A model generated the notes under the pieces. That model made no database searches, had not been told where the DNA came from, and worked only from the letters and a program-made list of their open reading frames with translations. From positions 1-64,000 of the forward strand of contig NZ_JAQFWQ010000004.1 of the NCBI RefSeq assembly GCF_027706725.1: a stretch of 64,000 bases of DNA, in the 5' to 3' direction. Shown here in pieces: positions 21,003 through 49,278 of this stretch. Source of the DNA: Nocardiopsis endophytica (GTDB lineage Bacteria; Actinomycetota; Actinomycetes; Streptosporangiales; Streptosporangiaceae). The translations under genes were made by a program, and so were the position numbers. Within the stretch, counting starts at the first letter, position 1; every line of letters begins with the position of its first letter.

Positions 21003-21306
21003 ACGTCACACTCCTGTTGCCGAACGGGCACACGGCCGTTTCCGGACGGACCGCAATTACCCCATTGACCTCGGAAATCCTCGTGGTTCGATGTGATTCG
21101 ACCAGGTACGGGGGTATTGGCGGTTCGACATGCCGGGTACATCGTGCGGTTGGTGAAGAAACACCGACGATCATTGGCGACCGAGATCCTGAACAATGCC
21201 TCACCATAGGTATGGGGTAGACAGGGCTCGGGCGACATCCGGGTGCCGCCGTGCCCCCGGATCGTCAGTGCCCGTTCCGGTGTGAGGAGAGGTTGGGGGA
21301 GGCGTG
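21003..21306. other. Intergenic region ahead of the secretion operon; no gene seen
   Basis: About 300 bp, locally AT-richer than the surroundings. It should carry the promoter of the secretion operon; TAGGTATGGGGTAGAC near 21208 is a weak -10-like candidate. No coding frame or hairpin I can defend. Confidence 0.4.
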
Positions 21307-22278
21307 ATGGCTCGCAGGTCGACCGCGCGGAGCGGCGGTACCCCCGAAGCCGCCGACGCGGCCGACGACGTGCGCGGGGGAGCGGGGCGGCTGAGGCGGC
21401 CCCGTGCCGGGTCCGGCGGCCGCTGGTGGGTCTGGGTCGGCCGCGCCGTCCTGTGGGCCTTCATCATCGTGGTCCTGTTCAACGGCGTCTGGCACCCGCT
21501 GCGGGAGGGCATCGCCACCCCGTCCGACGACGGCGGCTCCCAGGAGGAGCCCCAGGAGGCGCAGTTCCCCGAGGCGGCGGCGGGCGCGTTCGCGGGCCGC
21601 TTCGCCGAGCACTACCTGAACGCCCCCGAGGACGGCGCCGAGGCCGACCGGGCCGCGGCGCTCGCCGCGTTCGTCCCCGAAGGCGACGCCGACGAGTTCA
21701 ACGTCCCGGCCGGGTCGCTGACCGGGTCGGAGATCCAGGTCGTCACCGTCACCCCCGAGGACGACAACAACGCGGTGGTCACCCTCAGCGCGCAGGTCAA
21801 CGGCGAGCCCATGAGCCTGGACGTGCCCGTCTACGCCGAGGACGCCACCTCCCTGGTGGTGTCCGGGCCGCCGGCCCTGCTGGCCGCGCCCGACAAGGCC
21901 GAGCTGCCCGAGGCCTCCGGGGTCGAGGCCGACTCCGATGCCCGCGAGGAGCTGGAACCGGTGCTGACCTCGTTCTTCGAGGCCTACGCCGAGACGCCGG
22001 AGCACCTGACGCGCTACGTGGAGAACGGGGCGTCCGTGGCCCGCCTGCCCCAGGGGAGCCTGGAGTTCGGACAACTCGACGACGTGGTGGTACCCGCGCG
22101 GACCGACGTGGGGGAGGATGATGTACGCCAGGCCACGGCGACCGTGGAGTGGCGGATCCCCGGAGGCGGCGGCGAGGCCGCGTCCCTCACGCAGAGCTAC
22201 CGGATCACCGTCGTCCGTACCGACGGCGAGTGGTATGTGCGGGACCTCCAGGGGGCTCCGCAGTCCTTCGGCCGCTGA
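21307..22278 (+). CDS. TcpC-like conjugation/secretion channel protein
   Basis: Membrane-anchored extracytoplasmic protein, 323 aa. One N-terminal TM helix (WWVWVGRAVLWAFIIVVLF, about residues 40-59) is followed by two NTF2-like alpha+beta repeats, the second ending ITVVRTDGEWYVRDLQG. This is the layout of TcpC, the VirB8-like scaffold of Gram-positive conjugation machines. The ATG at 21307 has GGGGGAGG 4 bp upstream; GTG at 21304 is possible. It is the first gene of an operon that runs to 37478. No proof of conjugation: a relaxase is absent here. Confidence 0.75.
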   Translation: MARRSTARSGGTPEAADAADDVRGGAGRLRRPRAGSGGRWWVWVGRAVLWAFIIVVLFNGVWHPLREGIATPSDDGGSQEEPQEAQFPEAAAGAFAGRFAEHYLNAPEDGAEADRAAALAAFVPEGDADEFNVPAGSLTGSEIQVVTVTPEDDNNAVVTLSAQVNGEPMSLDVPVYAEDATSLVVSGPPALLAAPDKAELPEASGVEADSDAREELEPVLTSFFEAYAETPEHLTRYVENGASVARLPQGSLEFGQLDDVVVPARTDVGEDDVRQATATVEWRIPGGGGEAASLTQSYRITVVRTDGEWYVRDLQGAPQSFGR

Positions 22279-22358: not shown

Positions 22359-22676
22359 ATGCTCCCCCTGTTTTCCAGTGTCGTGCACGCGGTGTCGGAC
22401 ACGGTCGGGCCGATCGTGCTCGCCGCGGCCGACGCGCCCCCCGAGGACTCCCTGGACACCCAGGGGCTCGCGGAATGGCTCCGGGGATTCTTCGGGCCGC
22501 TGTTCCTGGTGATCGTCTCGGTGGTCGCGATCTTCTTCCTGTTCACACGAGAGATCACCCGATTTGTCCAATTTGTTCTTCTTGCGATCTTTATCGGGAT
22601 CGTCTTCTACGTGCCCCAGATCATCGAGGTGACGGCGACCGCCCTCGCGCGCGCCGTGGGCGTTCCGGTCGAGTAG
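22359..22676 (+). CDS. Small two-TM membrane protein of the secretion operon
   Basis: A 105-aa protein with a first hydrophobic segment at about 12-24, then two strong TM helices, FFGPLFLVIVSVVAIFFLF (about 44-62) and FVQFVLLAIFIGIVFYV (69-85). The start is supported by GGGAGGAC. Size, topology and place between the TcpC-like gene and the TcpE fusion suggest a VirB2/VirB3-like or TcpD-like small component, but no motif proves it. It ends 12 bp before the next gene. Confidence 0.7.
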   Translation: MLPLFSSVVHAVSDTVGPIVLAAADAPPEDSLDTQGLAEWLRGFFGPLFLVIVSVVAIFFLFTREITRFVQFVLLAIFIGIVFYVPQIIEVTATALARAVGVPVE

Positions 22677-22688
22677 GAGGCCCAGCGG

Positions 22689-25600
22689 ATGGACCTGCCC
22701 ACGTACACCAACATCTGGCGTATCGAGAAGCGGCTGTACAAGCTGTACGACTTCCGGCTGCCGCAGCCCCTCTCGGTCGTCACGCTGGGTGTGTTCCTGG
22801 GCGTCCTCGCCGTGTGGACCCTCCTGATGAGCCTGCTGAACGTCCCGCTGAGGACGCCCTGGCACGTGCTGTGGATCGTGCCGCCCCTCATCATCACCTT
22901 CCTGGCCACCCGGCCGGTGATCGAGGGGAAGCGGCTCACCGAGCTGCTGCTGTCGCAGATCCGCTTCCTGGCCGAGGCCCGGGTCTACACCCGGCTCGCC
23001 CCCGAGCACGAGCCGGCCGAGGTCCGGGTCGAGGTGCGCGTGTGGCACCGCGACCCGGACCTCCCGCTGCCGGACGTCTCCAAGTCCCGCAAGGCGAAGG
23101 GCGCCGCGAAGCGGCGCGGAGGGCTGCGCGAACCGGCCGTCGGCGCCGCCGGGCCCGAGCCGCTGAGGCTGGCACCGGCCCCTGAGGAGGCCGAGGTCAC
23201 CGGGCTCCCGGCCCAGACGGTGCAGGAGGAGGCGCCGGGCGAACGCGTGGCGGCGGTGGCCGCCCCGGAGAGGTCCCGGGGCAAACGCGCGCCCGAGCCG
23301 CTCAATCTCGACCGCGACAGGCCCGCCCCCGAGCCCCTCTCCTGGGCCGCCTCCGACGCCGTCCGTCCAACCGTTCGTCCGACCGCCCGTCCGCCGGAGC
23401 CCGAGGAGGAGCCGCAGGAGGCGCTGCACAAGGCACCGCACCAGGCGCCGCACGAGGCTCCTGTGCCGGAATCGGGCGAAGAGCCCGCCGAGGTTCCTAC
23501 CGCCCGCGTGCCGGACCGCCCCAAGGGAAGGCCCGAGCGCGAGGCCGGAGCGGCGCGCGCCGCGGAGCCCGGCGTCGTCGACGAGGCCCCCGAGCCCGAA
23601 CCGCTCCCCGAGGCGCCCGAGCCCGAGCCCCTGCCGGCCGAGCCGGTGCGCTCCCAGCCGCCGAGGCTCGCCTTCCCCGAGCCCGACCGCGTCGAGCCCG
23701 CCGCCGCCCCCGCCCGCACCCGTGACCGCGCCCGTGACCGCGCGACCGCCGCGAGCGCCGGACCGGCGCCGGCCCCCAAGCGCGGACTCGGCGTCAAGGT
23801 GCTGAACTACTTCGGGTTCGCGCTGAACAAGGCGCAGCCGCAGGAGCCCCGGGAGGCGTCCGAGGACGCCTTCGAGCAGGAGGCCGAGGGCTCGCTCACC
23901 CGGCCCACCTCCCTGGAGCGGGGGGAGGCGGCGGACCGCGCCCGCGAGCGCGACGAACTGCGCCGGGAGAACGAGGAGTGGCTCAACGCCTACCGCTCCT
24001 CGGGCGCTTCGGCGGCCGACCCGGAGGAGCAGTTCGACGAGGTCTATGACCCGGGCGGCAGGGAGAACGCCGCGGCCGCCGGGGAGGCCGGGAACAGGCC
24101 CGACAAGCAGGCCCGCCGCCGCGCCGAGGAGATGATGGCGGCACCGGCGCCTGAGGAGCCGCACGCCGCCCCGCCCGTGGACGAGGGCGTTCGCGTGATC
24201 GAGCCCGCCCCTGGGACGGCCGAAGAGGCGGTGTCGGCCGAAGGCGTGGCCGACCTCCCGGTCGAGCGCGACGAGAGCGCCCACCGGCGCCTGCGGGGCC
24301 GGATCCAGGGCAAGCAGGTGGAGCGCCGCCTCGCGCGTGAGCGTGAGCGCGTGGAGCCCCTGCTGCCCCGGCTGCAGGCGCAGGCGACCGGCGCCCCCGC
24401 GACGCCGGAGGAGGCCGCCCAGCAGGCGGTCGGCGAGACGGACGAGGAGCGCGGCCGCCGCCCGCACGCGGCGCCGTGGGAGCTGCCGGGGCACGGCGGC
24501 CAGAAGCGCGCTGAGGACCGTACCCGGGACGGCGCCGAGGCCGCCCCGCAGGCGGAATCGGCGGCGCAGGCCGAGGCGGCACCGCAGAAGGGGGAAGCGT
24601 CGCAGAAGGGGGCGGCGAGCGCCAAGAGCGCTCAGGAGGAGCGCCTGGAGGTGCTCGACCGCCACCTGGAGCGCCTGGAGGAACAGGAGCGTGCGGCGGA
24701 CCCCGTTCCGCCGCAGCCCCGCTTCGCCGAGTCCGAGGACATCGAGCGCACCAAGCGCCGTCGTGAGGGCTGGTTCACCGAGGAGCGCGCGGAGCGCCCG
24801 GTTCAGGACGAGGTCCGCAAGGCCGAGGCGCCGACCGAGCCGGTTCCCGCCGAGCCGGTCTCCGAGGCCGCCGCCGCGGAGTCGGCTGAGTCGGCCCCTG
24901 CCGAGGCGGGAGTCCCGGAGGCACCGTCACCGGAGGCGGGCCCGAAGAAGTCGCACAAGCCCGGACTTCAGCTCGACCACGGCACGGGCGAGCACGAGAG
25001 CTTCACCGCGACGGCGGAGGGGCCGCGCGACGCGGAGGAGTCGGCGAAGCCGGTCCGCGACGCCGCGTCGGAGCCGGTCCCGAACGCCACGCCGAAGCCG
25101 GCCACCGAGCTCGACCACGGGACCGGTGAGCACGAGAGCTACGCCGCCACCGCCGGGGCCGACGACGCCTCGCCTGAGGCGGCCTTCGATGCCGCCCCCG
25201 AGGCGGCTGCGGCCGGTACCCGCGCCGAGGCTCCGTCCAAGCCCGGTACCGAGCTGGACCACGGCACGGGGGAGCACGAGAGCTACGCGGCCACCGCCGG
25301 GCCGTCCGTCGACGAGCATGGCGCCAAGGGGGCCCGGTCGTCCGATCGGTCGTCCGAGCCGCCCCGGCCTTCGGCGGAGGAGCACGCGCCCACGGACGCG
25401 GCGACGGACGCGGCCACCGAGCAGGAGCCGAAGGCCGCCTCCGAGGACGACGCCGACGCCCGCCCCGAGCAGGGGGAGGAAGCGGCGCCGGAGCCGTCGA
25501 AGCCCGTGATGCAGCTCGACCACGGCACCGGCGAACACGAGAGCTACGGCTACGCGGCGGCGCCCCCTTGGCCGGGCGTCGCGGACCGGTCCGAAGCCTC

Positions 25601-28367
25601 CGCCGCGCACGCGTCGGAGCACGGGCACGACAGTGTGGTGTTTGTGGACACCGGGTCGAGCGAAGCCGAAGCGGGTGCGCCCGAGGAGCGTGCCGCCTCC
25701 ACGGCACCATCGACGCCGTCCGCATCCTCCGCGCCCTCAACACCGTCCGCGCAGTCCGAGGGACGGCCTTCCGATGAGTCCACGGCCCAGGAGGGCGTGG
25801 CCACGGCTTCCGAGGCGCCGGAGTCTTCGGACGGCCAGGCAGCGCAGGCCGCCGAAGGCGGTCGGTCCGGAGCCGGGGCCGGGGCAGCGGAGGCACCTGT
25901 CGGCGAAGCTGCGGTGTTCGAGGCGTCGGAGCGCGCCGAAAGCCCGGCTGCCCGGGCCGCGGAAAGCGGTCGGCCCGAGGCCGGGTCCGGGGCAACAGAC
26001 GACAGGGTTCGGGACCTGCCGGAGTCGGCCGGTGGGCACGCGGCGGCGAACGCCCCAGCCGATGGGGCCGCAACTTCTCAGCCGTCGGAGTCTTCGGAGG
26101 GCCAGGCCGCACAGGCCGCCGAGGACGGTCAGTCCGGAGCGGAGTCCAAGGCAGGCTCCCCGGAGGAGGACAGCAAGGCGGGGGACCTGCCGGAGTCGGC
26201 CGCCGCCCGCCCGGTGGCGGACGCCTCCGTCGGCGGGGCCGCGGCTTCCGGGGCCTTGGATTCCGCCGATGGCTCAGACGCGCACGCTGCCGGTGCTGTC
26301 GGAGCCGGTACGCCCAGTGCCGAGCCCGAGGCACCCGGCACACCCAAGGCATCCGAGGAACAGGACGGCGAGGTTCGGAGCCTCGCGGAGTCGGCGGGTG
26401 CCCGCTCGGCGCCGGACGCCCGCGAAGCGGACGTTCCCGTCGACGAAGCCAACGCCGACGAAGCCACCGCAGACGAAGCCGCCGCCGAGGATCAGGCATC
26501 GTCGGCCGCCGACGCGACCGGCGAGTCGAACTCCGACGGCGCGGATGCGGCTCCGGCCGTTTCGCACGGTGCCGTCTCCGAAACAGCGACCGCCGTCGGC
26601 TCCGACAGAGCAGAACCGGCAGAGGCGGGCAAGAACGAGGACGGCGTAGCCGAGGCTCCGGCCCCGAAGGCCGCCGAGAGCCCCGAACCCGCGAAGCCGA
26701 CCCCGGCCCCGTCCCCGGCCCCGCCCTCTCCGGCGCCCGTGAAGCCCGTCACCGAGCTGGACCACGGCACCGGCGAGCACGAGAGCTACGCCGCCACCGC
26801 CCGGCCGGACGAGGAACCGCACCGCGCCACCGACGACGACCTGACCGCCGCGGAGGAGGCCGCGCTCCGCGCGCGCCAGACGGCGTCCCGCCGCCCCGCT
26901 CAGGAGTCGGCCGCGCGCGCGGAGTCCTCCCCGTCCTCCCGGCGCTCCCCGTCCCCCGAGTCCAACGACATTCTTGAACGGTCGCGGCGGCTCTCGCGCT
27001 CCATGCGCAGCAACCCGACGGGCTCCCAGCGCGCGGTGCCCCACGAGCCCAAGCACACCTCCCGAGGCACCGACCGGGACACCGGCCGGAGCACCGACTC
27101 CCGGGCCGCCGACCCGGCGGAGAGCCCCGCCGAGCGCTCCGCTGAGCACTCCGCCGGGCGCTCCGCCGAGACCCGCCAGGCCCCTGAGTCAGGCACGGCA
27201 CAGCCCGGCGACGGCGTCTTCAGCAAGGTCGCCGAGAACGCCCGCCGCCTCAACAACCTCTTCGGCCAGGACGGCGACCGCGGCAAGGGCGCCTCCGAGC
27301 CCGGAACCGGCTCCGGCGAGGTCGTCGAACTCGCCCCCGACGGCTCCGGGACCGGCACCGCCTCCGACCCCGACTCCGACGACAAGCCCGAGCTCCAGCT
27401 CGACCACGGCACCGGCGAGCAGCGGCGTCTCAGCCCCGCCGACCGGGCCCGCGCCGCCGCCGAGGCGGCCGGGACCGACACCGGCGCCACCCGTGGCTGG
27501 CGGCGCCTGGCCCGCGTCGTCACCGGCGGCTCCAACGCGCCCAAGCACGAGCTGCCCGCCGGGGACGTCGCCCGCCTCCGCATGGACATCGGCGGCCCGC
27601 GCAGCGTGGTCGTGCTCGGCTGCACCGGCGGCGCCGGGCAGACGATCACCTCGCTCATGCTCGGCCACACCCTGGCGTCCTACCGGGACGAGCGGATCGT
27701 CGCCGTCGACGTGAACCCGGGCGTCAACGGCCTGTCGCGCAGGATCAGCAGCGAGACCCCGGAGACGCTCACCTCCCTGCTCGCCAACGCCGAATCGGTC
27801 GACGGGTACGCGGACATGCGCCGGTACACCACCCAGACCGGCACCGGCCTGGAGGTCGTCTCCACCCTCGACGACCCCTACGTCCAGACCCTCGACGACC
27901 GCGACTACGCGGGCCTGGCCGAGCTGCTCTCGGCCCACTACGAGGTGGCCCTGCTCGACCCGGCCGCCACCGGGGTGGCGCGCGCGCTGCCCACCGCCGA
28001 CGGGCTGGTCCTGGTGGCCCCGGCGAGCGCGGACGCCGCGCGCTCGGTCGCCATGACCTTCGAATGGCTGGACGGGCACGGGTACGCGGCGCTGCGGTCC
28101 CGCTCGGTCGTGGTCATCAACGGGGTCAGCAAGCGCAGCCTCGGCGACGTCGACGAGGCCGAGCAGGTGGCCCGCGGGCGCTGCCGCGCCATCGTGCGCG
28201 TCCCCTGGGACGACCACATCGCCCAGGGCAGGCTCGGGGACACCGGGAACCTGCGCTCCAGCACCCGGCGCGCCCACGCGGCGCTCGGCGGGGTGCTGAT
28301 GCACGCCGTGTCCCCGGCGGGGCAGCAGCCGCCGAACAACCGCGCCCCGTCGGAGGCCCGCCGATGA
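22689..28367 (+). CDS. TcpE / disordered linker / ParA-like fusion protein
   Basis: Very large protein, 1892 aa, with AGGAGG upstream. Residues 1-125 match the TcpE/PrgI type: YTNIWRIEKRLYKLYDFRLP, then two TM helices (about 33-70). Residues 130-1550 are Ala/Glu/Pro/Ser-rich, presumably disordered, with six copies of the motif LDHGTGEHES (starts at residues 762, 808, 856, 943, 1357; a degenerate one at 1571). The last 260 residues are a ParA/MinD-type domain: SVVVLGCTGGAGQT at about 1639-1652, IVAVDVNPG, and EVALLDPAATG. The P-loop lacks its Lys (GGAGQT for GKGGVGKT), so ATP use is doubtful. A cytoplasmic scaffold or receptor role in secretion is likely. Confidence 0.8.
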   Translation: MDLPTYTNIWRIEKRLYKLYDFRLPQPLSVVTLGVFLGVLAVWTLLMSLLNVPLRTPWHVLWIVPPLIITFLATRPVIEGKRLTELLLSQIRFLAEARVYTRLAPEHEPAEVRVEVRVWHRDPDLPLPDVSKSRKAKGAAKRRGGLREPAVGAAGPEPLRLAPAPEEAEVTGLPAQTVQEEAPGERVAAVAAPERSRGKRAPEPLNLDRDRPAPEPLSWAASDAVRPTVRPTARPPEPEEEPQEALHKAPHQAPHEAPVPESGEEPAEVPTARVPDRPKGRPEREAGAARAAEPGVVDEAPEPEPLPEAPEPEPLPAEPVRSQPPRLAFPEPDRVEPAAAPARTRDRARDRATAASAGPAPAPKRGLGVKVLNYFGFALNKAQPQEPREASEDAFEQEAEGSLTRPTSLERGEAADRARERDELRRENEEWLNAYRSSGASAADPEEQFDEVYDPGGRENAAAAGEAGNRPDKQARRRAEEMMAAPAPEEPHAAPPVDEGVRVIEPAPGTAEEAVSAEGVADLPVERDESAHRRLRGRIQGKQVERRLARERERVEPLLPRLQAQATGAPATPEEAAQQAVGETDEERGRRPHAAPWELPGHGGQKRAEDRTRDGAEAAPQAESAAQAEAAPQKGEASQKGAASAKSAQEERLEVLDRHLERLEEQERAADPVPPQPRFAESEDIERTKRRREGWFTEERAERPVQDEVRKAEAPTEPVPAEPVSEAAAAESAESAPAEAGVPEAPSPEAGPKKSHKPGLQLDHGTGEHESFTATAEGPRDAEESAKPVRDAASEPVPNATPKPATELDHGTGEHESYAATAGADDASPEAAFDAAPEAAAAGTRAEAPSKPGTELDHGTGEHESYAATAGPSVDEHGAKGARSSDRSSEPPRPSAEEHAPTDAATDAATEQEPKAASEDDADARPEQGEEAAPEPSKPVMQLDHGTGEHESYGYAAAPPWPGVADRSEASAAHASEHGHDSVVFVDTGSSEAEAGAPEERAASTAPSTPSASSAPSTPSAQSEGRPSDESTAQEGVATASEAPESSDGQAAQAAEGGRSGAGAGAAEAPVGEAAVFEASERAESPAARAAESGRPEAGSGATDDRVRDLPESAGGHAAANAPADGAATSQPSESSEGQAAQAAEDGQSGAESKAGSPEEDSKAGDLPESAAARPVADASVGGAAASGALDSADGSDAHAAGAVGAGTPSAEPEAPGTPKASEEQDGEVRSLAESAGARSAPDAREADVPVDEANADEATADEAAAEDQASSAADATGESNSDGADAAPAVSHGAVSETATAVGSDRAEPAEAGKNEDGVAEAPAPKAAESPEPAKPTPAPSPAPPSPAPVKPVTELDHGTGEHESYAATARPDEEPHRATDDDLTAAEEAALRARQTASRRPAQESAARAESSPSSRRSPSPESNDILERSRRLSRSMRSNPTGSQRAVPHEPKHTSRGTDRDTGRSTDSRAADPAESPAERSAEHSAGRSAETRQAPESGTAQPGDGVFSKVAENARRLNNLFGQDGDRGKGASEPGTGSGEVVELAPDGSGTGTASDPDSDDKPELQLDHGTGEQRRLSPADRARAAAEAAGTDTGATRGWRRLARVVTGGSNAPKHELPAGDVARLRMDIGGPRSVVVLGCTGGAGQTITSLMLGHTLASYRDERIVAVDVNPGVNGLSRRISSETPETLTSLLANAESVDGYADMRRYTTQTGTGLEVVSTLDDPYVQTLDDRDYAGLAELLSAHYEVALLDPAATGVARALPTADGLVLVAPASADAARSVAMTFEWLDGHGYAALRSRSVVVINGVSKRSLGDVDEAEQVARGRCRAIVRVPWDDHIAQGRLGDTGNLRSSTRRAHAALGGVLMHAVSPAGQQPPNNRAPSEARR

Positions 28368-28396
28368 CCCGCGCAACGACCACCACCCCCCTCCTC

Positions 28397-28458
28397 GTTG
28401 ATCTCGGGAAAAACGCCCCTAAAACCGCACTTGTAGCGTCGTTTCTCCCGAGATCAAC
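28397..28458. repeat. 62-bp palindromic element, copy 3 (left end of cassette)
   Basis: GTTGATCTCGGGAAAAACG tip, inner AACGCCCCTAAAACCGC, right tip CCCGAGATCAAC. It starts 30 bp after the stop of the fusion gene. Near-perfect inverted match to the element at 29651-29712. Confidence 0.9.
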
Positions 28459-28465
28459 ATGGGGG

Positions 28466-29584
28466 TTAGTACGTGTAGGGGAGTCGGCGCTCAGCGGCAC
28501 GGCGGGGTGGCGAGGCGCTCCCAGCCGCCTCGCGAATATGGCGCAGGCGTTCAGCGGTCTCGCGTTGGAGGCGCGCCGCGTGCCGAGGGTGATGGTCGCT
28601 GACCACGGCCCCTCGGAGGCGCAGCTGGGTCTTCACGTCGGCTATCGCCGATGGCAGCACGGTGGGACGGGTCTTCGAGGTCACGATGTAGAGCCGGACG
28701 CCTTGGTCCCGGATGAGCTGCCAGCGCTCGACGTCCTCGTGTCTGCGTTCCTTGTGCACGTCGCCGTCGTATTCGATGGCCACGAGGGTTCTCCCTTCAT
28801 CGAACGCGTAGCACAGGTCCAACCGCGCGCGTCGCGTCCCGCCCGTGCCAATGGCGATCTCGTACTGCAGCTCCGGCACGGGGAGCCCCGCTCCGACCAG
28901 GTCCATCAGCAAGCGCGACTCCTCTGGCGAGTCCACTTCCGGGTGGGCGAACTCGGCAGCGGCGGCCGCCCTCCGAACGCCGCGCCAGCGGTAGAAACGT
29001 TCACGCGCGACATAGGCACGAAATTCCTCGGGGCTGAACGGCGCTCCGCGGGTCCGTCGTCCTTCCCGGCCGACCGAGAGCATGGCGTTCAGCGCCGCCA
29101 CGTTCTCGCGCAGGTCACCGGGGCTGGGTTCCCACCGGTCGGGCGCTTTCAGTCTCGACAGATCGAAAGCGGTGCGCAGAGGTGCGGTTGCGGGGATACC
29201 GAATACCAGGGTGGTGTCCTCGCCAAGCAGCTCGGCGTGGGCGACCCTCACAGGAAGGTCGCGGATGCGGATCGGATGCACCTGGGCATCGCGGGGTGCG
29301 ATTACGGCAACGGGGTCGCCGTCGCGCCGGTAGTCGGCACCGTGAAGCGCGGCGGCGGCAGAGCCTCCGACCACGGCGCCCGGAGGCAACACCAGCGCGA
29401 GTGCGCGAAGCGCTGTGCGCAGGGATTCCGGCTGAGTGGACGCATGTGTGTAGATGCCGCTTCCCATTCGCGTCCAGCAAGGGGAACGAAGGCGACGAGC
29501 GGTGATGAGCCCCCTGTCGATCGCTTCGCGTGCGCGGAAGGGGCCGTTGAGCAAGGCGGGAGGCGCGTCAGGGTGTCTGGGCAT
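28466..29584 (-). CDS. AbiEi-like / DUF559 endonuclease-fold protein
   Basis: A 372-aa protein. The N-terminal part (EAIDRGLITARRLRSPCWTR, then GGSAAAALHGADY) has the winged-helix and nucleotidyl-transferase-antitoxin-like look of AbiEi. The C-terminal 110 residues are of the Vsr/DUF559 restriction-like fold: RARLDLCYAFDEGRTLVAIEYDGDVHK carries the D...E-x-D-G pattern (in two parts: LDLCYAF and VAIEYDG), followed by HEDVERWQLIRDQGVRLYIV. Such genes are frequent solitary cargo in actinobacteria; a role in defence or mobile-element upkeep is suspected, not shown. It opposes the host operon and lies between inverted repeats. A relative is at 59253. Confidence 0.72.
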   Translation of the reverse strand: MPRHPDAPPALLNGPFRAREAIDRGLITARRLRSPCWTRMGSGIYTHASTQPESLRTALRALALVLPPGAVVGGSAAAALHGADYRRDGDPVAVIAPRDAQVHPIRIRDLPVRVAHAELLGEDTTLVFGIPATAPLRTAFDLSRLKAPDRWEPSPGDLRENVAALNAMLSVGREGRRTRGAPFSPEEFRAYVARERFYRWRGVRRAAAAAEFAHPEVDSPEESRLLMDLVGAGLPVPELQYEIAIGTGGTRRARLDLCYAFDEGRTLVAIEYDGDVHKERRHEDVERWQLIRDQGVRLYIVTSKTRPTVLPSAIADVKTQLRLRGAVVSDHHPRHAARLQRETAERLRHIREAAGSASPPRRAAERRLPYTY

Positions 29585-29650
29585 GTGAACACCCTCCGCC
29601 CTCTACGCTCCGCATGGGCGCTATCCACAGCCCCAACCACCCTCCTGCTC

Positions 29651-29712
29651 GTTGATCTCGGGAAAAACGACGCTACAAGCGCGGTTTTAGGGGCGTTTTT
29701 CCCGAGATCAAC
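29651..29712. repeat. 62-bp palindromic element, copy 4 (right end of cassette)
   Basis: GTTGATCTCGGGAAAAACG tip and CGTTTTTCCCGAGATCAAC tip. Compared in reverse complement with copy 3 there are two mismatches in 62. It ends 45 bp before the virB4 start. Confidence 0.9.
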
Positions 29713-29757
29713 GAGGGAGGGCGTAGGCGTGACGACCAGCAACCGGGAGGGGCACCG

Positions 29758-32316
29758 ATGAACGGCAGCAGGGGCGGCAGCCGCCTCGCGGTCCGGTACT
29801 TCGACGACCGCGTCCTGCTCAGCGACGCCGAGGCGTGGGCCTACTTCCGCCTCCCGACGGTCTCCTACGAGTTCACCACGCCGGAGGAGCGCGAGGCCCT
29901 CGCCAACAACATCACCATCGCCCTCGCCGCGATCCGGATGGACGACGCGGAGGTGCACCTGCGCATCGCGCACCGCACCTACCCCGCGGCCCAGTGGGCG
30001 ACCCGCCTGGACGGCACCTCCGACTCCGGCGCCGGGTGGTACGAGTACCTCGACGAGATGTACCGCCACGTGTGGGCCAAGGACTTCTGGACCAAGGAGG
30101 TCTACCTGGGCGTGCGCCTGGGCCTGCGGGGCGGCGTCCGCGGCCAGCTCTCCCAGGGGATGTTCGCGCAGCTGGTCGGGGCCTACCAGCGCTCGGAGCA
30201 GGCGCTCGGCATCGAGGACCCGGCGATCGACGCCAAGGAGATCGCGCGCTGGACCGAGCAGTCCGAACGCCTGGGGCGCGCGCTGTCGGCCAGCTCCCTG
30301 CACGCCAAGCACGCGACCGCGAACCAGATCGCCTGGCTCTTCAGGCACGCCGTCACCGGGACCGTAGAGGAGCCCCGGCCGTCGGCGGCGGGGCGGCGCA
30401 CGTGGGGGCGCGGCGAGATCGAGCAGCTGGTGGAGGGCGTCATCCACAACGGGCGCTCCATGCTGCGCCTGGAGCAGAACATCGGGGACACCTACGTCGC
30501 CTACCTGTCGTTCTCCCGGTTCCCCGACCTCATGCCCTTCCCGGAGGGCGAACCGTGGATGCACTACGCGGACGCGCTCCCGTTCCCGGTCGAGATCAGC
30601 TCCCGGATGAAGCTGATCCCGCCCGCCAAGGCGAGCAAGGACGTCAGCCGCAAGCTCGCCCACGCGCGCGACATGGACGCCCACATCCGCGAGGCGGGGG
30701 CGGACATGCCGATCGCCCTCGCCGAGCAGATCGACGCCGCCCGGATGCTGGAGCACGGCATCACCAAGGAGCGGCTGCCGTTCGTGTACGGGTGGCACCG
30801 GCTGATGGTGTCGGCGCCGACCGAGGAGCTGCTGGTGCAGCGCATCGAGGCGGTCGTCGAGCACTACCGGGACATCGGCATCGACGTGGTGAACTCGACC
30901 GGTGACCAGCTCTCGCTGTTCAACGAGTCGCTGCCGGGGGATCGGATCCGCCTCAGCGCCTACGCCCAGCGCCAGCCCCTGCGGACCATCGCCGGGGGCA
31001 TGCCGACCGCCACCGTCGACCTGGGCGACCGCCGCGACCCCAGCCAGGGGGGCGGGGGATGGACCGGCCCCTACATCGGCGAGACGCTGGGGCGGGCCCG
31101 GTCCATCGTGCACTTCGACCCGATGGTGGCGGCGGCGCGCAACCGGCCCACCGCCATCGCCATCACCGGCGAGCCGGGCGGCGGCAAGACGACGCTCGCG
31201 CTGCTTCTCATCTACCAGCTGGCGCTGCGCGGGGTGACCGTCGCGGCGATCGACCCCAAGGGCGACGCGGAGTCGCTGGTGCGGCTGCTCCAGCGGCGGG
31301 GGCGCAAGGCGCGCATCATGTCCCTGGAGTCGGCGCAGCCCGGGCTGCTGGACCCGTTCGCGTTCGGGGACGACCTGCCGGCCAAGAAGACCATGGCGAC
31401 CGAGACGCTGAGGCTGCTGCTGCCCCGCATGAGCGAGGAGCGCGAGTCCGCCATGATCCAGGCGGTGGCCGCCGTCGCCAACCAGCCCGAGCCGAGCCTG
31501 GCGAAGGTCGTGCAGTACCTGGAGCGGTCGCACGACCCGGCGTCGCGCAACCTGGGCGCGGTGCTGCAGTCCATGTCGGAGATGCGGCTGGCGAACCTGT
31601 GCTTCTCGCCCCAGGGGGACGCGCAGGTGGACTCGGAGGGGTGGACGACGGTCTTCACCCTCGGGGGCCTGACGCTGCCCGACTCGACCATCCAGCGCGA
31701 GGACTACTCCTACGAGCAGCGGTTGAGCGTCGCGCTGCTGTACCTGGTGAGCCAGTTCGCCCGTGAGCTGATGAACGGGCTCGACCGGCACCTCCCCAAG
31801 GCGATCTTCCTGGACGAGGCGTGGGCGGTGACCTCCACCCCCGAGGGCGCCAAGCTGGTGCCCGAGGTGAGCCGCATGGGCCGCTCGCGCAACACCGCGC
31901 TGATCCTCGTCAGCCAGAACGCCGGCGACCTGCTGAACGAGCAGGTGACCAACTGTCTGTCCAGTGTGTTCGCGTTCCGTTCGAGTGAGCGGTACGAGGT
32001 GGAGAGCGTCATGTCGCTCCTCGGGGTGGAGTCCGAGGAGGAGCACATGGGGATGCTCAGGAACCTCGGCAACGGTGAATGCATCTTCCGCGACCTGGAC
32101 GGACGGGCGGGGCGCATCGCCGTGGACCTGGTGTCGGAGGAGCTGCTGCGGTGGCTGGACACCAACCCGACACGGCAGCACCCGGACGAGGAGGACACCG
32201 AGGTCTTCGAGGGTGCGGAGGCCTTGGTGGGCACGGGTGGCATGGGCGGTACCGGCGGTATGGGTGGTACCGGCGGTATGGGCGGCACCGGCAGGGGCAA
32301 CGGGCAGGAACGGTGA
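29758..32316 (+). CDS. VirB4-like secretion ATPase
   Basis: Motor ATPase of type IV secretion, 852 aa. The N-terminal half has the VirB4/TraC-like helical domain. Walker A is ITGEPGGGKTT (P-loop at 471-479) and Walker B AIFLDEAW (682-689), followed by the motor motif SRMGRSRNTALILVSQNAGD. The C-terminus is an acidic tail and three 6-residue GTGGMG repeats (825-842). The ATG at 29758 follows GGGAGGGG. Position between the TcpE fusion and the VirB6-like gene, with length typical for VirB4, makes the call firm; it should be peripheral on the cytoplasmic side. Confidence 0.9.
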   Translation: MNGSRGGSRLAVRYFDDRVLLSDAEAWAYFRLPTVSYEFTTPEEREALANNITIALAAIRMDDAEVHLRIAHRTYPAAQWATRLDGTSDSGAGWYEYLDEMYRHVWAKDFWTKEVYLGVRLGLRGGVRGQLSQGMFAQLVGAYQRSEQALGIEDPAIDAKEIARWTEQSERLGRALSASSLHAKHATANQIAWLFRHAVTGTVEEPRPSAAGRRTWGRGEIEQLVEGVIHNGRSMLRLEQNIGDTYVAYLSFSRFPDLMPFPEGEPWMHYADALPFPVEISSRMKLIPPAKASKDVSRKLAHARDMDAHIREAGADMPIALAEQIDAARMLEHGITKERLPFVYGWHRLMVSAPTEELLVQRIEAVVEHYRDIGIDVVNSTGDQLSLFNESLPGDRIRLSAYAQRQPLRTIAGGMPTATVDLGDRRDPSQGGGGWTGPYIGETLGRARSIVHFDPMVAAARNRPTAIAITGEPGGGKTTLALLLIYQLALRGVTVAAIDPKGDAESLVRLLQRRGRKARIMSLESAQPGLLDPFAFGDDLPAKKTMATETLRLLLPRMSEERESAMIQAVAAVANQPEPSLAKVVQYLERSHDPASRNLGAVLQSMSEMRLANLCFSPQGDAQVDSEGWTTVFTLGGLTLPDSTIQREDYSYEQRLSVALLYLVSQFARELMNGLDRHLPKAIFLDEAWAVTSTPEGAKLVPEVSRMGRSRNTALILVSQNAGDLLNEQVTNCLSSVFAFRSSERYEVESVMSLLGVESEEEHMGMLRNLGNGECIFRDLDGRAGRIAVDLVSEELLRWLDTNPTRQHPDEEDTEVFEGAEALVGTGGMGGTGGMGGTGGMGGTGRGNGQER
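32230..32283 (+). repeat. 18-bp tandem repeat inside virB4-like gene
   Basis: Three 18-bp units of the form GGYACSGGYGGYATGGGY (32230, 32248, 32266) plus a partial fourth encode a Gly/Thr/Met tail. Units two and three differ in one base, a likely slippage-prone length polymorphism. Confidence 0.85.
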
Positions 32317-32387
32317 ACATGCGGCTGGGGCGCGGACGACGGCATGGTCCAGGGATCGGTGAGCAGGAAGAGCGCGCGGAGGAGCCG

Positions 32388-34751
32388 ATGAGGGGGGCGA
32401 GTGGAGCGGGAGGGGCGCGCGCACGTCCCGGGCTCCGCCGGTCGCTGTCGATGGCGCTGCTGGTGATGGCGTTCCTGCTGGTGCCGCTGGGGTCGGCGCA
32501 GGCGGCGCCTGTGTGTCCCGGAGAGCCGGCGCCTCAGCCGGAGGCCGCGGGGAGCGGATCGGACGGCCTCCTCGTTCCACCCCAGTCCCAGTCGTCGATC
32601 GTCGGCTCCGAGGACGGTCTTCCGCCGGACGCGAGCATCTACGGCCAGTACGGGACGGCGGGCCAGCAGTGGCACGTCATCCGCGAGTCGTGTGTGGACA
32701 AGATGTCGTCCAGCGCGATGGCGACGCTCAGCAACACGACATGGTCCCTGTCGAAGACCATCAACCAGTCGACGATCACGGTCTACCAGGCGGCGACGTC
32801 GGACGGTCTGCTCAACGACTTCAATGCCATGGTCACGGGTGTAATCACCCAGCTCCGCGAGGGGATCTGGCGCCCGCTCCTGCCCACGGTGATCATCCTC
32901 GGGGCGGTGTGGCTCGGCTGGTACGGCCTGGTCCGCAAGCGTGTGACCCTGACCGTCGAAAGTACGATCTGGATGGTCCTCGCGACCGCTCTGGGCCTTT
33001 GGATCCTGGTGCAGCCCCAGCAGATCCTCAACATGGCGAGCGGGGTTGTGAACTCGGGGACCCAACTCGTCAACTCGGCGGTCTCCAGGGTGTCCGTGGG
33101 GGCCGGGAGCACGGCGTGCCCCGCTGGTGCGGAACCCGTGCAGCAGGCCGAGTGGGAGTCGGACAGTGATTTCGCGGTCCGCCAGAACTCGAACATGCTG
33201 TGGAGCAGTCTGGTCTGCCAGCCGTGGATCGCTGGGACCTTCGGGAACGGCACTGTGGCTGAGGACGCGGCCGAGTTTTATGCGGTCGATGTTCTTGAAT
33301 CTCAGGGAATCAGCCGAGTCGAGCAGCAGCAGATCGCCGATGGTGACGCCGACGCAGAGGAACTGATCGCCGATAAGGAGGCTCAGTACAAGGACATCGC
33401 TTCTCAGCTGCAGGAGTCCCATCCCGGCGTCTATCCGCTCTTCGCCGGTGATCAGCAGGGCGATCGACTCGGTGTGGCCGTGCTCGCCCTCTTCGCCGCG
33501 ATCTTCGCCGGTGGACTGATCCTCGCCGGGTCGGTGGCGCTGATCGTGTTGAAGATCGGGTTCCTGCTCCTACTCCTGCTGGCGCCCGTGTTCCTCTTGA
33601 TCGGTGTGCACCCGGGGTATGGGCGGACGGTCCTGCTCAGGTGGCTGGAAATGATGTTCGGCCTCCTCCTCAAGCAGATCTTCGTGGTGATGCTGATCGC
33701 GCTCCTGGTGATGTGCTACGGCATCATCATGGGCTCCGGCCTCGGCTGGGGGCTCCAGATGATCCTGCTGGCGCTCTTCACACTCGCGCTCTTCATTTAC
33801 CGCAAGCCCTTCGCGCACCTGTTCGCCTCGGTCAACGCCAACACCTTCACGTCGCGGATGGTCAGCGACGCCATGCAGAGCCGCACGCTGAGCCAGAGCG
33901 CGAACGTGCTGCCGCCGGTGGCCTACATGCGTGCGCAGAAGTGGGGCCTCAAGCGTGCACCCCAGCTCGCCGCTGCCGCCGCTGCGGTTCCGGCAGCGGG
34001 CGCCGGTGCAGGCGGCGACCAACCGGACGCCGGCGGCCGGGGGACCGCACAGGGCACACCGGAACAGGCGGAAGGGGAAGGCAGCGCTGTGCGCGGCGAG
34101 GGCCGCCGGGTCCGCGGAAGCGCAGGCTACGGCCGTGCGCACGGCAAGTCGGGGCCGCCACCGCTCAAGCTCGGCCAGACGGCGGGCAAGGAGCCTTCGG
34201 CGTCGACACCGTCCGCGCCTCCGCCCAAGAGCGCCGACCAGGCGCCGAGCCTCGGCGGGGTCGCCGCGCACAGCGGGGGAGTGGGCTCCGGATCCGGGAG
34301 CCGGGAGAGCGGCTCCGGGCCGATCCCGCCCCGTCCGGCGGGCGGTTACCGGGGCACCGGCGACACGGGCTGGGCGTCCGTCTTCGGTACGGGGAGCGGT
34401 AGCGGCCAGCGTTCGGGGGCGGGAGGCGACTCCCGCGCGGCGGAGCCTCCGCCGAGGGGCGAGCCCTCGCCGACGAGCGGTTCCGGCATCTTCAAGGGGC
34501 GGGAGGCCACCCCGCCGCAGGGCAACGTGAACAGGGGCTCCCGCTGGGGCGGCCCCCGAGCCCGGAGGGAGCGCCCCGCGCCTCCGCGTCAGGCCGCGCC
34601 GCCCGCCTCGAACGGGTCGAAGGAAGGCGGGCACTGGTTCAAGTCCGGCGACCGGGACCCGGACCGGCCGATCAGCCCCTTCTGGACAGGCACAGGGGCG
34701 CAGCGGCGTCCGGACAAGGACGTCCCGTTCTGGCTGAAGGACGGTGACTGA
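32388..34751 (+). CDS. VirB6/TcpH-like polytopic membrane protein
   Basis: A 787-aa secretion-channel protein. The ATG at 32388 has GGAGGAG upstream and begins a signal peptide ending LVPLGSAQA. A luminal part of about 80 residues precedes the helices: TVIILGAVWLGWYGLV and WMVLATALGLWILVQ, an outside loop with several Cys, then a dense block of helices (GVAVLALFAAIFAGGLILAG, VALIVLKIGFLLLLLLAPVF, IFVVMLIALLVMCYGIIM). The last 250 residues are Gly/Ser/Pro/Arg-rich, probably disordered in the cytoplasm. This is the TrbL/VirB6 layout. A frame from 32319 would add 23 residues without a good ribosome site. Confidence 0.82.
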   Translation: MRGASGAGGARARPGLRRSLSMALLVMAFLLVPLGSAQAAPVCPGEPAPQPEAAGSGSDGLLVPPQSQSSIVGSEDGLPPDASIYGQYGTAGQQWHVIRESCVDKMSSSAMATLSNTTWSLSKTINQSTITVYQAATSDGLLNDFNAMVTGVITQLREGIWRPLLPTVIILGAVWLGWYGLVRKRVTLTVESTIWMVLATALGLWILVQPQQILNMASGVVNSGTQLVNSAVSRVSVGAGSTACPAGAEPVQQAEWESDSDFAVRQNSNMLWSSLVCQPWIAGTFGNGTVAEDAAEFYAVDVLESQGISRVEQQQIADGDADAEELIADKEAQYKDIASQLQESHPGVYPLFAGDQQGDRLGVAVLALFAAIFAGGLILAGSVALIVLKIGFLLLLLLAPVFLLIGVHPGYGRTVLLRWLEMMFGLLLKQIFVVMLIALLVMCYGIIMGSGLGWGLQMILLALFTLALFIYRKPFAHLFASVNANTFTSRMVSDAMQSRTLSQSANVLPPVAYMRAQKWGLKRAPQLAAAAAAVPAAGAGAGGDQPDAGGRGTAQGTPEQAEGEGSAVRGEGRRVRGSAGYGRAHGKSGPPPLKLGQTAGKEPSASTPSAPPPKSADQAPSLGGVAAHSGGVGSGSGSRESGSGPIPPRPAGGYRGTGDTGWASVFGTGSGSGQRSGAGGDSRAAEPPPRGEPSPTSGSGIFKGREATPPQGNVNRGSRWGGPRARRERPAPPRQAAPPASNGSKEGGHWFKSGDRDPDRPISPFWTGTGAQRRPDKDVPFWLKDGD

Positions 34752-34812: not shown

Positions 34813-35472
34813 ATGCCCAGGACACTGACCGATCGGCAGCAGCGAGTCGTCTTTGGCGCCCTCGTCGTCGTTTTGGTCGCCTTCGGTATCTATCTGAGCA
34901 TCGGAGGCTTCGGCGGGGGCGACGAGCAGGACGCGGACGGCCAAGGGCCGCAGGCCGGGGGAGGCCAGGAGGACAGGGCGGATACGGGTGCACCTGCGAC
35001 GGCGGCGCCCAGCCCGATTCCGACGACGGACGTGCAGGACGTTCAGGTCCTCGATCTGCTTCCGCTCGAAGAGGATGAGCTGAAGGCGGCCGCTGCGACC
35101 GCTCAGGGGTTCGCCGAGGCCTACGGGACCATCGACTACACCGGCACTCGCGAAGCGTACTTCGCCTCCCTGGAGGAACTGGCGGCTCCGGACTACGCCG
35201 AGACGCTGGCGCAGAGCTCCGGGGCTGGCGCTCTCTGGGACGAGATGGCGGAGAAGGAGACGACGGCGGAGGGACGCGCCGAAGTCGAGTCGATCCGGAG
35301 TTTCAGCGAGAACTCGGTCGTCTTCGTGGTGACGGCGCAGTCCATCGTTCAGAACTCGGACGGAGCGGACGAGAACCTCGGCGATTACGCAGTGACGGTG
35401 CAGAAGGAAGGCGGGCAGTGGGAGGTCTACGACCTCCAGCCCGCCGATGCGGGAAACCTGGGTGGGGGATGA
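34813..35472 (+). CDS. Anchored NTF2-like (VirB8/TcpC-like) secretion protein
   Basis: A 219-aa protein with one N-terminal TM helix (VVFGALVVVLVAFGIYLSI, about 12-30), a Gly/Asp/Gln-rich linker, then an extracytoplasmic alpha+beta domain: LKAAAATAQGFAEAYGTIDY, EYFAS-type helix, and final strands VFVVTAQSIV and GGQWEVYDLQP. The fold pattern is that of NTF2-like VirB8 domains, a second such component beside the gene at 21307. It lies 61 bp after the VirB6-like gene. Function as channel scaffold is inferred from topology and neighbours. Confidence 0.72.
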   Translation: MPRTLTDRQQRVVFGALVVVLVAFGIYLSIGGFGGGDEQDADGQGPQAGGGQEDRADTGAPATAAPSPIPTTDVQDVQVLDLLPLEEDELKAAAATAQGFAEAYGTIDYTGTREAYFASLEELAAPDYAETLAQSSGAGALWDEMAEKETTAEGRAEVESIRSFSENSVVFVVTAQSIVQNSDGADENLGDYAVTVQKEGGQWEVYDLQPADAGNLGGG

Positions 35473-35526: not shown

Positions 35527-36696
35527 ATGATCTCCCTCTTCGTCGGATGGCCGCGGGACGATTCCGGGGCCGGCGCCACACGGCTGGCCATCGCCGTCGG
35601 GTTCCTGATGGCCGGGGCGCTGGTCATGGTCCTTGTCGTGCTTCCGCTGGCCATCCTTCAACCTGCGGGGTACATGGCGGTGCAAGGGCTCCAATGCTCG
35701 TCCGATCCCAATGCCCAGCAGGCTCAGAGCAGTGGGTACGCCGAGGACTCGATTCCTGAGAACTACCTGGAGCTCTATAAGGAGTGGGGAGAGAAGAAGG
35801 GGATTCCCTGGAACATCCTCGCGGGCATCGGCCAGGTGGAGAGTAAGCACGGACGCTGGGAGGGTCCCGGCATCACCGAGGGGCACAACGACTGGGGTGC
35901 CGCCGGGCCCATGCAGTTCGGCGCTCTGGACGGATCGGCCGCCGGTAACAGCTGGGGCGGTGAGCCGATCATGGACGCCGACGACCGTCCGGAGCAGGGC
36001 TATGGTCAGGACGGCAATGAGGACGGCGTGGTCAGCGTCTACGACCCTGAGGACGCGATCCCGGCGGCAGCCGATTATCTGATCGCCAATGGGATCAAGG
36101 ACGACGTTCGGCAGGCGATCTACTCGTACAACCACGCCTGGTGGTACGTGGACGACGTCATGGGGTGGGCCGATCAGTACTCTGCTGGCGACTTCGACAC
36201 CAGCGGGTCGATCGATACCGCGGTGAACTGCACGGTCGACGACCAGGGGGCGCCGATCGGACAGGCGCCGGACGAGGCTTCGCAGGCCGTGGTGGATTGG
36301 GCGTTGGCCCAGCGAGGGAAGCCGTATCTGTATGGGGGGACGGGGCCGGACGCGTTCGATTGCTCGGGGCTGCTGATGAAGGCGTACGAGAGCATCGGGG
36401 TGTCGATCCCCAGGATCTCGCAGGACCAGTGGAAGTTCGGTCCGAAGATCGAGCAGGGCGAAGAACAGCCCGGAGACCTCGTGTTCTTCGATGTGAGCCG
36501 TTCGAATGAGCCGCCCGGACCGGGGCACGTCGGCATGGTGATCGGGGACGGGCTGATGGTGGAGGCCTGGTGCACCGACTGCGGGCCGATCGCGACGCGT
36601 GAGTATGATGACCCGAGCCGTGCGGACATCCTCGGCTTTACACGGCCGCTGGAGCACCCGGACGTGAAGGCGCAGTTGGAGCAGCAGAACCCCTAG
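35527..36696 (+). CDS. Lytic transglycosylase plus NlpC/P60 cell-wall hydrolase
   Basis: Membrane-anchored bifunctional peptidoglycan hydrolase, 389 aa. One TM helix at about 22-46, then a goose-type lytic transglycosylase domain with Glu105 in ILAGIGQVESKHG and later AIYSYNHAWWYVDDV, then an NlpC/P60 endopeptidase domain with Cys279 in AFDCSGLLMKAYESIG and His334 in GPGHVGMVIGDG. This is the domain order of TcpG-like/VirB1-like enzymes that open the wall for conjugation machines (Tn916 Orf14, TcpG). Its presence in the operon is the best sign that the apparatus spans the wall. Confidence 0.9.
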   Translation: MISLFVGWPRDDSGAGATRLAIAVGFLMAGALVMVLVVLPLAILQPAGYMAVQGLQCSSDPNAQQAQSSGYAEDSIPENYLELYKEWGEKKGIPWNILAGIGQVESKHGRWEGPGITEGHNDWGAAGPMQFGALDGSAAGNSWGGEPIMDADDRPEQGYGQDGNEDGVVSVYDPEDAIPAAADYLIANGIKDDVRQAIYSYNHAWWYVDDVMGWADQYSAGDFDTSGSIDTAVNCTVDDQGAPIGQAPDEASQAVVDWALAQRGKPYLYGGTGPDAFDCSGLLMKAYESIGVSIPRISQDQWKFGPKIEQGEEQPGDLVFFDVSRSNEPPGPGHVGMVIGDGLMVEAWCTDCGPIATREYDDPSRADILGFTRPLEHPDVKAQLEQQNP

Positions 36697-36710: not shown

Positions 36711-37478
36711 ATGGCCGAGAAGGCAACGGCGAGCAGGGCGGCGAAGAAGGGGCTCCACGGGTGGAAGGCGTTTCTCGTCGTCTTTGTCTCGGGGACCCTG
36801 GCCGCGTTCCTCGTGATGGGCGTCATCGTCGGGACCCTGCGCCTCTTCGTCTCCACCGTCACCGGCGGAGGGGAGGAGGAACCCCCATCGGCGGGTGGCG
36901 GCGCTGTCACTCAGCAGACAGGGGAGCCCATGCCCTCGATGCCTCCGGGGAAGCTCGACATCTGCAGCCGGACCCTTCCGAGTATCTCCGCAGTCGGCTT
37001 GGAGCGCCTGGACGGGGACGAGGATTTCCATGATGATGCGTTCGATGGCGGCGGAAGTGAACGCATCGTCCGAGACGAATGTGAATGGAAGCTCACGCCG
37101 GAGTACGCGTCCACAGATCGTTGGGACCTCACTTTCTCCTACGAGGCCATCTTGGCGTCCGGAAACGGCGAGAGCAGGGAAGAACGCGCAGATGCCCTGT
37201 ACAACGACTGGCGTTCCGGCGCATCCGCAGAGGTCGGCGAAGTCCTGGAGGAGGGGGACGAAGACATCTCGGATAGTGCGTATGTCGTCTACGGGGAAGG
37301 TGAAGGGGACAGCACGGCTTTCGTTCTGGTGGGGCGCGTGCGCAGTGCCGTCTATCAGATGTCGCTGAAGGCGCCCACAGGGGGAGAGGGGGAAGTCCCC
37401 CGGGGGGCTTTCGAGAACGAGACGGAGAAGCTCGTTGAGAGGCTCGATGTTGCTTTCGGGCTAAGGATTCCCGAGTGA
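36711..37478 (+). CDS. Anchored extracytoplasmic protein, last gene of the secretion operon
   Basis: A 255-aa protein not recognised. Basic N-terminus, TM helix WKAFLVVFVSGTLAAFLVMG and following residues (about 18-45), Gly/Pro linker, then an acidic outside domain with two Cys (DICSRTLPSISAVGLERL, RDECEWKLTPEY) likely forming a disulfide. No enzyme motif. The spacing after the hydrolase gene is 14 bp, so it is part of the operon. Its 3' end overlaps the convergent DUF397 gene by 18 bp. It could be a cargo, a surface factor or an inhibitor for the wall hydrolase. Confidence 0.65.
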   Translation: MAEKATASRAAKKGLHGWKAFLVVFVSGTLAAFLVMGVIVGTLRLFVSTVTGGGEEEPPSAGGGAVTQQTGEPMPSMPPGKLDICSRTLPSISAVGLERLDGDEDFHDDAFDGGGSERIVRDECEWKLTPEYASTDRWDLTFSYEAILASGNGESREERADALYNDWRSGASAEVGEVLEEGDEDISDSAYVVYGEGEGDSTAFVLVGRVRSAVYQMSLKAPTGGEGEVPRGAFENETEKLVERLDVAFGLRIPE

Positions 37479-49153: not shown

Positions 49154-49278
49154 AGAGCGACATTACCGGCGCCGGCGGGGCGCCCCCGGTCGGGCCTCCC
49201 AGCAGGCGCGGAGCAGGCCCAGACCCTTTGCATCCCGAACGTGCCCGACCGGTTGGCGTAGGGGACCACACTGGGAGA

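Follow-up and report, generated by a model that had tools for sequence, protein, structure and literature searches.

A disordered, motif-bearing arm joins a TcpE (VirB3-type) domain to a lysine-less ParA fold in a putatively domesticated T4SS of the Streptosporangiaceae

In the window analysed here, a 64,000-nucleotide stretch of Nocardiopsis endophytica DNA, a single gene joins a TcpE membrane domain to a ParA-fold domain through a long disorder-like linker (Table 1). We lean slightly towards reading its product as the VirB3-type subunit of a domesticated, chromosomal and vertically inherited T4SS of the MPF_FA/Tcp type, in which the linker would provide a flexible motif scaffold and the ParA domain an ATP-independent hub. 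The parts of this reading that the sequences themselves carry are the TcpE domain, the apparently intact VirB4, VirB6, VirB8 and hydrolase partners, a fusion that seems to have arisen once, and two ParA lysines whose loss is fixed. A preliminary description of this DNA had proposed a single TcpE-disordered-ParA chain of 1892 residues, and the open reading frame, the PF12648 match, the composition of the linker and the AlphaFold2 fold all bear it out. No description of the TcpE-linker-ParA combination was found in the literature searched, and each of its ingredients has a known relative.

Table 1. Coordinates in the window of the fusion gene, its parts and the genes of its operon.
Feature	Position	Strand	Evidence or remark
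tcpC, VirB8-type conjugation protein, first operon gene	21304..22278	+	PF12642 E 1.5e-17
Small two-TM-like membrane protein, tcpD position; pilin-like or VirB3-like candidate	22361..22676	+	ORF
Fusion gene: TcpE, disordered linker, ParA-fold putative pseudo-ATPase	22689..28367	+	1892 aa
TcpE (VirB3-type) membrane domain, residues 5-102	22701..22994	+	PF12648 E 2.5e-21; two hydrophobic segments (TM estimate)
Disorder-like linker, residues 103-1595	22995..27473	+	Composition, charge-hydropathy
Linker island KVLNYFGFAL (Nocardiopsis clade)	23796..23825	+	LNYFGFAL common to 17/27 Nocardiopsis-clade linkers
Linker island RRPHAAPWEL (Nocardiopsis clade)	24456..24485	+	RRPHAAPW common to 14/27 Nocardiopsis-clade linkers
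Motif copy 1	24957..25004	+	KPGLQLDHGTGEHESF
Motif copy 2	25095..25142	+	KPATELDHGTGEHESY
Motif copy 3	25239..25286	+	KPGTELDHGTGEHESY
Motif copy 4	25500..25547	+	KPVMQLDHGTGEHESY
Motif copy 5	26742..26789	+	KPVTELDHGTGEHESY
Motif copy 6 (LDHGTGEQxxL variant)	27384..27431	+	KPELQLDHGTGEQRRL
ParA/Soj-fold domain, about residues 1625-1880	27561..28328	+	AlphaFold2 and VIA-align, Z 24.2 to 1wcv
Degenerate Walker A LGCTGGAGQT	27615..27644	+	Both ParA lysines lost
virB4/tcpF ATPase	29758..32316	+	AAA_10 E 1.5e-67; NF052333 E 4.4e-74 (below curated cut-off)
virB6/trbL-type membrane protein	32313..34751	+	PF04610 E 2e-6; NF046089 E 2e-26 (below curated cut-off)
219-aa membrane-anchored protein, no family	34813..35472	+	Position kept in nearly all loci
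NlpC/P60 (and weak SLT) cell-wall hydrolase, VirB1-type	35527..36696	+	PF00877 E 3.2e-20, PF01464 E 0.0015
255-aa membrane protein, after hydrolase	36711..37478	+	Nocardiopsis-clade loci only

The start codon of the fusion gene lies 12 nt past the upstream stop with GGAGG in front of it, and the protein scores 76.5 bits against PF12648, over the cut-off of 29.9. The linker amounts to about 1,500 low-complexity residues (composition A20 E13 P11 R8 S8), and every 100-residue block from 101 to 1600 falls under the charge-hydropathy boundary. Pfam gave only a weak match to the C-terminal domain (CbiA, E 0.012). Its AlphaFold2 model (mean pLDDT 86, pTM 0.87) superposes on Soj (1wcv) over 225 residues with an rmsd of 2.5 and on MinD with a Z of about 22, and as modelled the domain is a clear, full Soj/MinD fold.

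The fusion is real. The same fusion is present in more than 100 other genomes, so that a sequencing error joining two genes, raised in the preliminary description as a possible explanation, is ruled out. A scan of species genomes found 76 loci with homologues, in Nocardiopsis, Streptomonospora, Marinactinospora, Actinomadura, Thermomonospora, Actinocorallia, Actinoallomurus, Nonomuraea and other genera, and the clade names used below rest on the named records of that scan. At complete loci a single frame holds both the TcpE and the ParA part; the exceptions, L027 and L125, are frameshift-like, and the split reads of these two and of L021 resemble local frameshifts (at L125 the frame with the GC-rich third position shifts). 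Fused relatives with both ends read range from 623 to 2141 aa. TcpE is single-copy in 143 of 146 Streptosporangiaceae genomes of an order-wide sample, usually within a 600-2100 aa frame, and the three genomes without it are fragmented assemblies of 470-740 contigs; in samples of 394 and 296 class genomes all over-threshold TcpE matches fell within the Streptosporangiaceae. This TcpE-based figure is the count we use, since many of the weaker matches of the homologue search are an unfused paralogue. The query of that search carried a few non-native leading residues, and its matches start at or after residue 3, so that the counts are hardly affected.

The P-loop of the window protein was confirmed as VVVLGCTGGAGQT; the loss of its lysine had been recognised at the outset (CTGGAGQT), and the signature lysine proved to be lost as well, with Thr in place of the latter and Gln in place of the former. 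Both lysines are absent from every fused homologue whose P-loop was read: Walker A is LGCTGGAGQ[TS], or GCT[SA]GAGQT among the remotest of these proteins (overall GCT[GSA]GAGQ[TS]). All 20 unfused relatives examined keep KGGVGKT, two of them being encoded in an ESX locus on a Mycolicibacterium plasmid. Most Streptosporangiaceae genomes sampled also contain an unfused relative, with an identity of about 40%; the paralogue in the organism's own genome (L119:4682-8728, 1348 aa, near serS) has an intact KGGVGKT. This paralogue also contains a long disordered region with a repeated peptide of its own, PPAGAYGTGPQ. In an IQ-TREE tree of 40 domains, a 100/100 branch splits fused from unfused, and ESX-plasmid ParA proteins group within the unfused sister clade. 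The fused domains are a single group with full support, which ties inactivation to fusion, and a single fusion with a single lysine loss would be the simplest history. With the lysines lost from all fused proteins read and kept across the unfused sister group, the domain is likely a pseudo-ATPase, as had been suggested.

The main rival to an ATP-independent hub is a domain that still binds ATP, hydrolyses it very slowly or not at all, and acts as a nucleotide-gated dimer switch, in the manner of the atypical ParA/MinD hubs TadZ/CpaE of pilus systems. This rival owes its place to the Walker A' and Walker B aspartates (D71 and D154 of alignment A2), which are invariant, with most loop glycines, in a 25-row alignment, and it also agrees with the full fold of the model; the fixed P-loop Gln might mark a specialised nucleotide-binding site instead of a lost one. 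However, such a switch has to contend with the disappearance of both lysines from every fused homologue read and their retention in the unfused sister family, and with a second loop glycine that drifts to Ser or Ala in the most distant fused homologues. We regard it as rather unlikely.

The linker carries six copies of a short motif, exactly where the preliminary description had placed them: LDHGTGEHES at residues 762, 808, 856, 943 and 1357, and LDHGTGEQRR at 1571. In the window protein the motif is longer than first noted, KPxx[EQ]LDHGTGExxx[FYL]. The view that it is too exact to be compositional stands, with 2.7e-6 LDHGTGE copies expected from the linker composition against six observed and, in 500 shuffles, at most two copies of any 7-mer of comparable complexity. 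The sixth copy had been called degenerate. Its sequence does differ, but it has not decayed: LDHGTGEQxxL is the last copy, 73-111 residues upstream of the P-loop, in most clade members, and its own form and steady distance across the clade mark it as a conserved variant.

Across the Nocardiopsis clade and its nearest basal relatives, 98 distinct versions conform to KPxLxLDHGTGExxx[L/F/M]. Conservation is 0.85 for K, 0.89 for P and 0.70 for L, then [EQ] and an L at 0.93; within the core, D, H, G and T stand at 0.97 each, the second G at 0.92 and E at 0.91, with a hydrophobic residue four positions on. Most clade members have two or three ancestral-looking copies. One could suppose that such motifs arise neutrally, as a side effect of unstable GC-rich coding repeats, within a spacer for which length and disorder suffice, and the linker does vary widely (fused proteins run from about 620 to more than 2,100 aa) and some relatives do bear private repeats. 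We find this improbable. The K, P, LDHGTGE and hydrophobic end are kept across the 98 versions, over many species, while the surrounding linker diverges, and the last copy retains its own variant and a similar distance from the domain. In addition, the six window copies show synonymous-site differences in 35 of 105 core codon comparisons and so are not fresh DNA duplications; the copies look old and held by selection at the protein level.

The motif was found in the Nocardiopsis clade, in the fusion gene only, with a few diverged copies in basal genomes outside that clade. No other protein of the organism's own genome or of 120 Streptosporangiaceae genomes contains it, a weak match in G049:C105 aside, which is on a separate contig and may be a fusion fragment. 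In the linkers of Actinomadura, Nonomuraea and their relatives we saw no convincing DHGTG-like motif except one diverged copy at L017; a few low-scoring stretches (e.g. L061, L047 and L052) exceed the shuffled maxima without the motif core. Instead, TRPDIPQ or a close variant is present in 1-4 copies in the linkers of many Actinomadura, Thermomonospora and Actinocorallia proteins, including the Actinomadura/Thermomonospora-type loci L020, L023, L036 and L040, and the Nonomuraea and Actinoallomurus proteins read contain neither LDHGTGE nor TRPDIPQ. Since fused homologues of other clades do without LDHGTGE, and many of them have TRPDIPQ, the former is by all appearances a clade-specific short linear motif and not a defining feature of the fusion. 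The notion that it belongs to the fusion as such thus finds no support, given the motif-free fused homologues outside the Nocardiopsis clade.

Several candidate partners of the motif were considered. VirB4 is about 80-90% identical between clades with different motifs, and this conservation in the face of changing motifs does not favour it as a conserved receptor. The adjoining ParA domain was rejected, as AlphaFold2 leaves the last copy unstructured (pLDDT 36-43) and not docked on it. The 255-aa membrane protein is fast-evolving (28-56% identity) and has the same clade range as LDHGTGE; despite this co-occurrence it was set aside, as it apparently has just a short cytosolic tail. The motif could also be imagined as a phospho-threonine (FHA-type) or metal-binding peptide that renders the scaffold signal-responsive, given its invariant Thr and conserved D, H and E, but this proposal is drawn purely from residue types, with no linked partner or kinase, and we give it little credence.

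The genes around the fusion are those of a secretion machine. At all complete loci the order is tcpC - (small membrane protein) - fusion - virB4 - virB6/trbL - 219-aa - NlpC/P60. The small membrane protein, for which the window copy has no Pfam match, precedes the fusion at most loci and is below threshold at some. The fusion is adjacent to and upstream of virB4, with a 1.4-kb insertion between them in the window that most relatives lack. The insertion holds an ORF (28466-29584, minus strand) with weak matches to AbiEi antitoxin and MTES_1575 endonuclease, flanked by two REP-like palindromic units; L005 and L006 have a related insertion at this place and most other loci do not. The palindrome, GTTGATCTCGGGAAAAACG, occurs at 377 places in the genome with at most two mismatches (a reversed-pattern control gave 0), often in inverted pairs 43 nt apart, the window units lying at 28382-28476 and 29636-29730. 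Farther along, adjacent AAA_21 ATPase and RloB-like genes (40116-42235) match PADLOC AbiLi (E 6e-92) and AbiLii (E 5e-19) and are a probable AbiL-type defence pair, and an SNF2/DUF3670 helicase at 49228-52530 has strong PADLOC matches to the ZorD and DpdE helicase domains.

The window VirB4 has intact Walker motifs (Walker A GEPGGGKT, Walker B IFLDEAW), as do the other copies read, and over 47 loci its mean pairwise identity is 0.87 with a minimum of 0.78. Pairwise distances of TcpE, the ParA domain and VirB4 correlate at 0.93-0.96 over these loci, a value that partly reflects shared species history by construction, and is consistent with vertical descent of the whole unit; together with the conservation of VirB4 and its Walker motifs, it is consistent with a working, vertically inherited machine. 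The location of the operon is not universal: its neighbours in Actinomadura and relatives are ychF, ispH and xseA-type genes (recognised from translations), whereas in the window a TetR regulator and other genes lie beside it. The window ORFs scanned gave no Pfam match to a relaxase, coupling protein or integrase, and no ESX gene was seen among them. Elsewhere, T4CP (PF02534) occurs in 13 of 25 relatives and a TrwC relaxase in 9 of 25; the organism's own genome gave one T4CP match, located on a different contig, and none to TrwC relaxase. Given this patchy occurrence and the absence of both from the operon, the system is, as judged from its genes, a relaxase-less, chromosomal MPF_FA-like apparatus. 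It has the features of a domesticated T4SS, namely chromosomal, vertically inherited VirB4 and VirB6 and an absent relaxase, and this large family of soil actinobacteria appears to pass the whole machine on as a normal part of the chromosome and not as mobile-element cargo. That the operon instead serves the transfer of a mobile ICE or plasmid, and is conserved since that element is common, is very improbable: its parts are of conjugation type and FA-class conjugative systems exist in actinobacteria (PMC3158045), but the single copy in nearly every genome, the constant operon, the congruent distances, the lack of relaxase, coupling protein and integrase matches, and the patchiness of T4CP and TrwC among relatives all speak against it.

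The domesticated system proposed here shares with the TcpE/ConC/OrfE family (PF12648; pCW3, ICEBs1 and ICESt3) the domain match, two hydrophobic segments, a gene directly before virB4, and tcpC and a hydrolase in the operon. VirB3-type proteins are typically small, at 10-15 kDa (PMC12857230); the window protein is not, adding a ParA domain and a disordered stretch of about 1,500 residues, and its operon differs from TcpE-family conjugation systems in having no relaxase and no coupling protein. Atypical ParA/MinD domains are also known from TadZ/CpaE, where they serve as the localisation hub of a secretion pilus, a likeness to the fused ParA; TadZ/CpaE differs in belonging to the Tad system, in its receiver-like N-terminus and in its residual ATP binding. 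The ESX-1-associated EspI likewise ties a disordered region and a ParA-type domain to a secretion system, and its gene position and architecture lead us to infer that it belongs to one family with the unfused group. Lys425 of EspI binds ATP and is essential, and the protein turns down ESX-1 secretion at low ATP (PMC11302016), whereas the fusion has lost both lysines, has TcpE fused on and sits in a T4SS-like locus instead of an ESX one. The ParA-like conjugation helpers VirC1, which positions the DNA substrate (PMC4949242), and StbB (PMC3098194) are further instances of a ParA-like protein in service of a T4SS; both are separate proteins outside the channel, while the window ParA is lysine-less and part of a VirB3-type subunit. 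Finally, archaeal Ced/Ted are domesticated chromosomal T4SSs with VirB4 and VirB6 and no relaxase, and MinD/ParA is often found near Ted loci (PMC9905601). The window system shares the chromosomal T4SS, VirB4, VirB6 and missing relaxase, but Ced/Ted are archaeal, their ParA is unfused, and a pilin and DNA import have been demonstrated for them, whereas the evidence on the window system is sequence-based.

How might the fused protein work? TcpE is the VirB3 homologue of MPF_FA systems, and VirB3 proteins have short cytoplasmic ends (PMC12857230), which would place the linker and the ParA domain in the cytosol. The TcpE domain may thus sit in the membrane beside VirB4 with both ends cytosolic, and the disordered arm may serve as a flexible, multivalent scaffold, its repeated linear motif drawing in a partner from the cytosol; this motif is of LDHGTGE type in the Nocardiopsis clade and of TRPDIPQ type in many Actinomadura and relatives. 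The ParA-fold domain, apparently of the same ancestral stock as EspI-like actinobacterial ParA proteins, would no longer cycle ATP and could position or control the apparatus as a fixed hub for docking or dimerisation. The existence of ParA-type conjugation helpers and of MinD/ParA beside Ted loci makes such a positioning role plausible. Against this reading as a whole, the linear motifs vary by clade, and the operon is just one of the places where the fused ParA could act.

Conjugation machines are normally regarded as the property of mobile elements. Domestication as such is not a new idea, as an earlier argument holds that ICEs may frequently turn into domesticated systems for protein transport (PMC3158045); a Tcp-type system that spans a family, lacks a relaxase and carries a fused ParA without its lysines would be a clear and testable case of it. 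The dead ParA fused to a T4SS, set against the live ParA beside ESX or serS, may also offer a natural experiment on what a ParA does without ATP hydrolysis. We tentatively propose, as something just short of an even prospect, that throughout a family of filamentous actinobacteria a conjugation machine has been domesticated into core equipment, and that a ParA ATPase has been turned into an ATP-independent hub welded to the VirB3 channel subunit by way of a motif-bearing scaffold. If true, bacteria would have their own equivalent of the archaeal Ced/Ted domestication, one in which the channel itself contains the spatial organiser.
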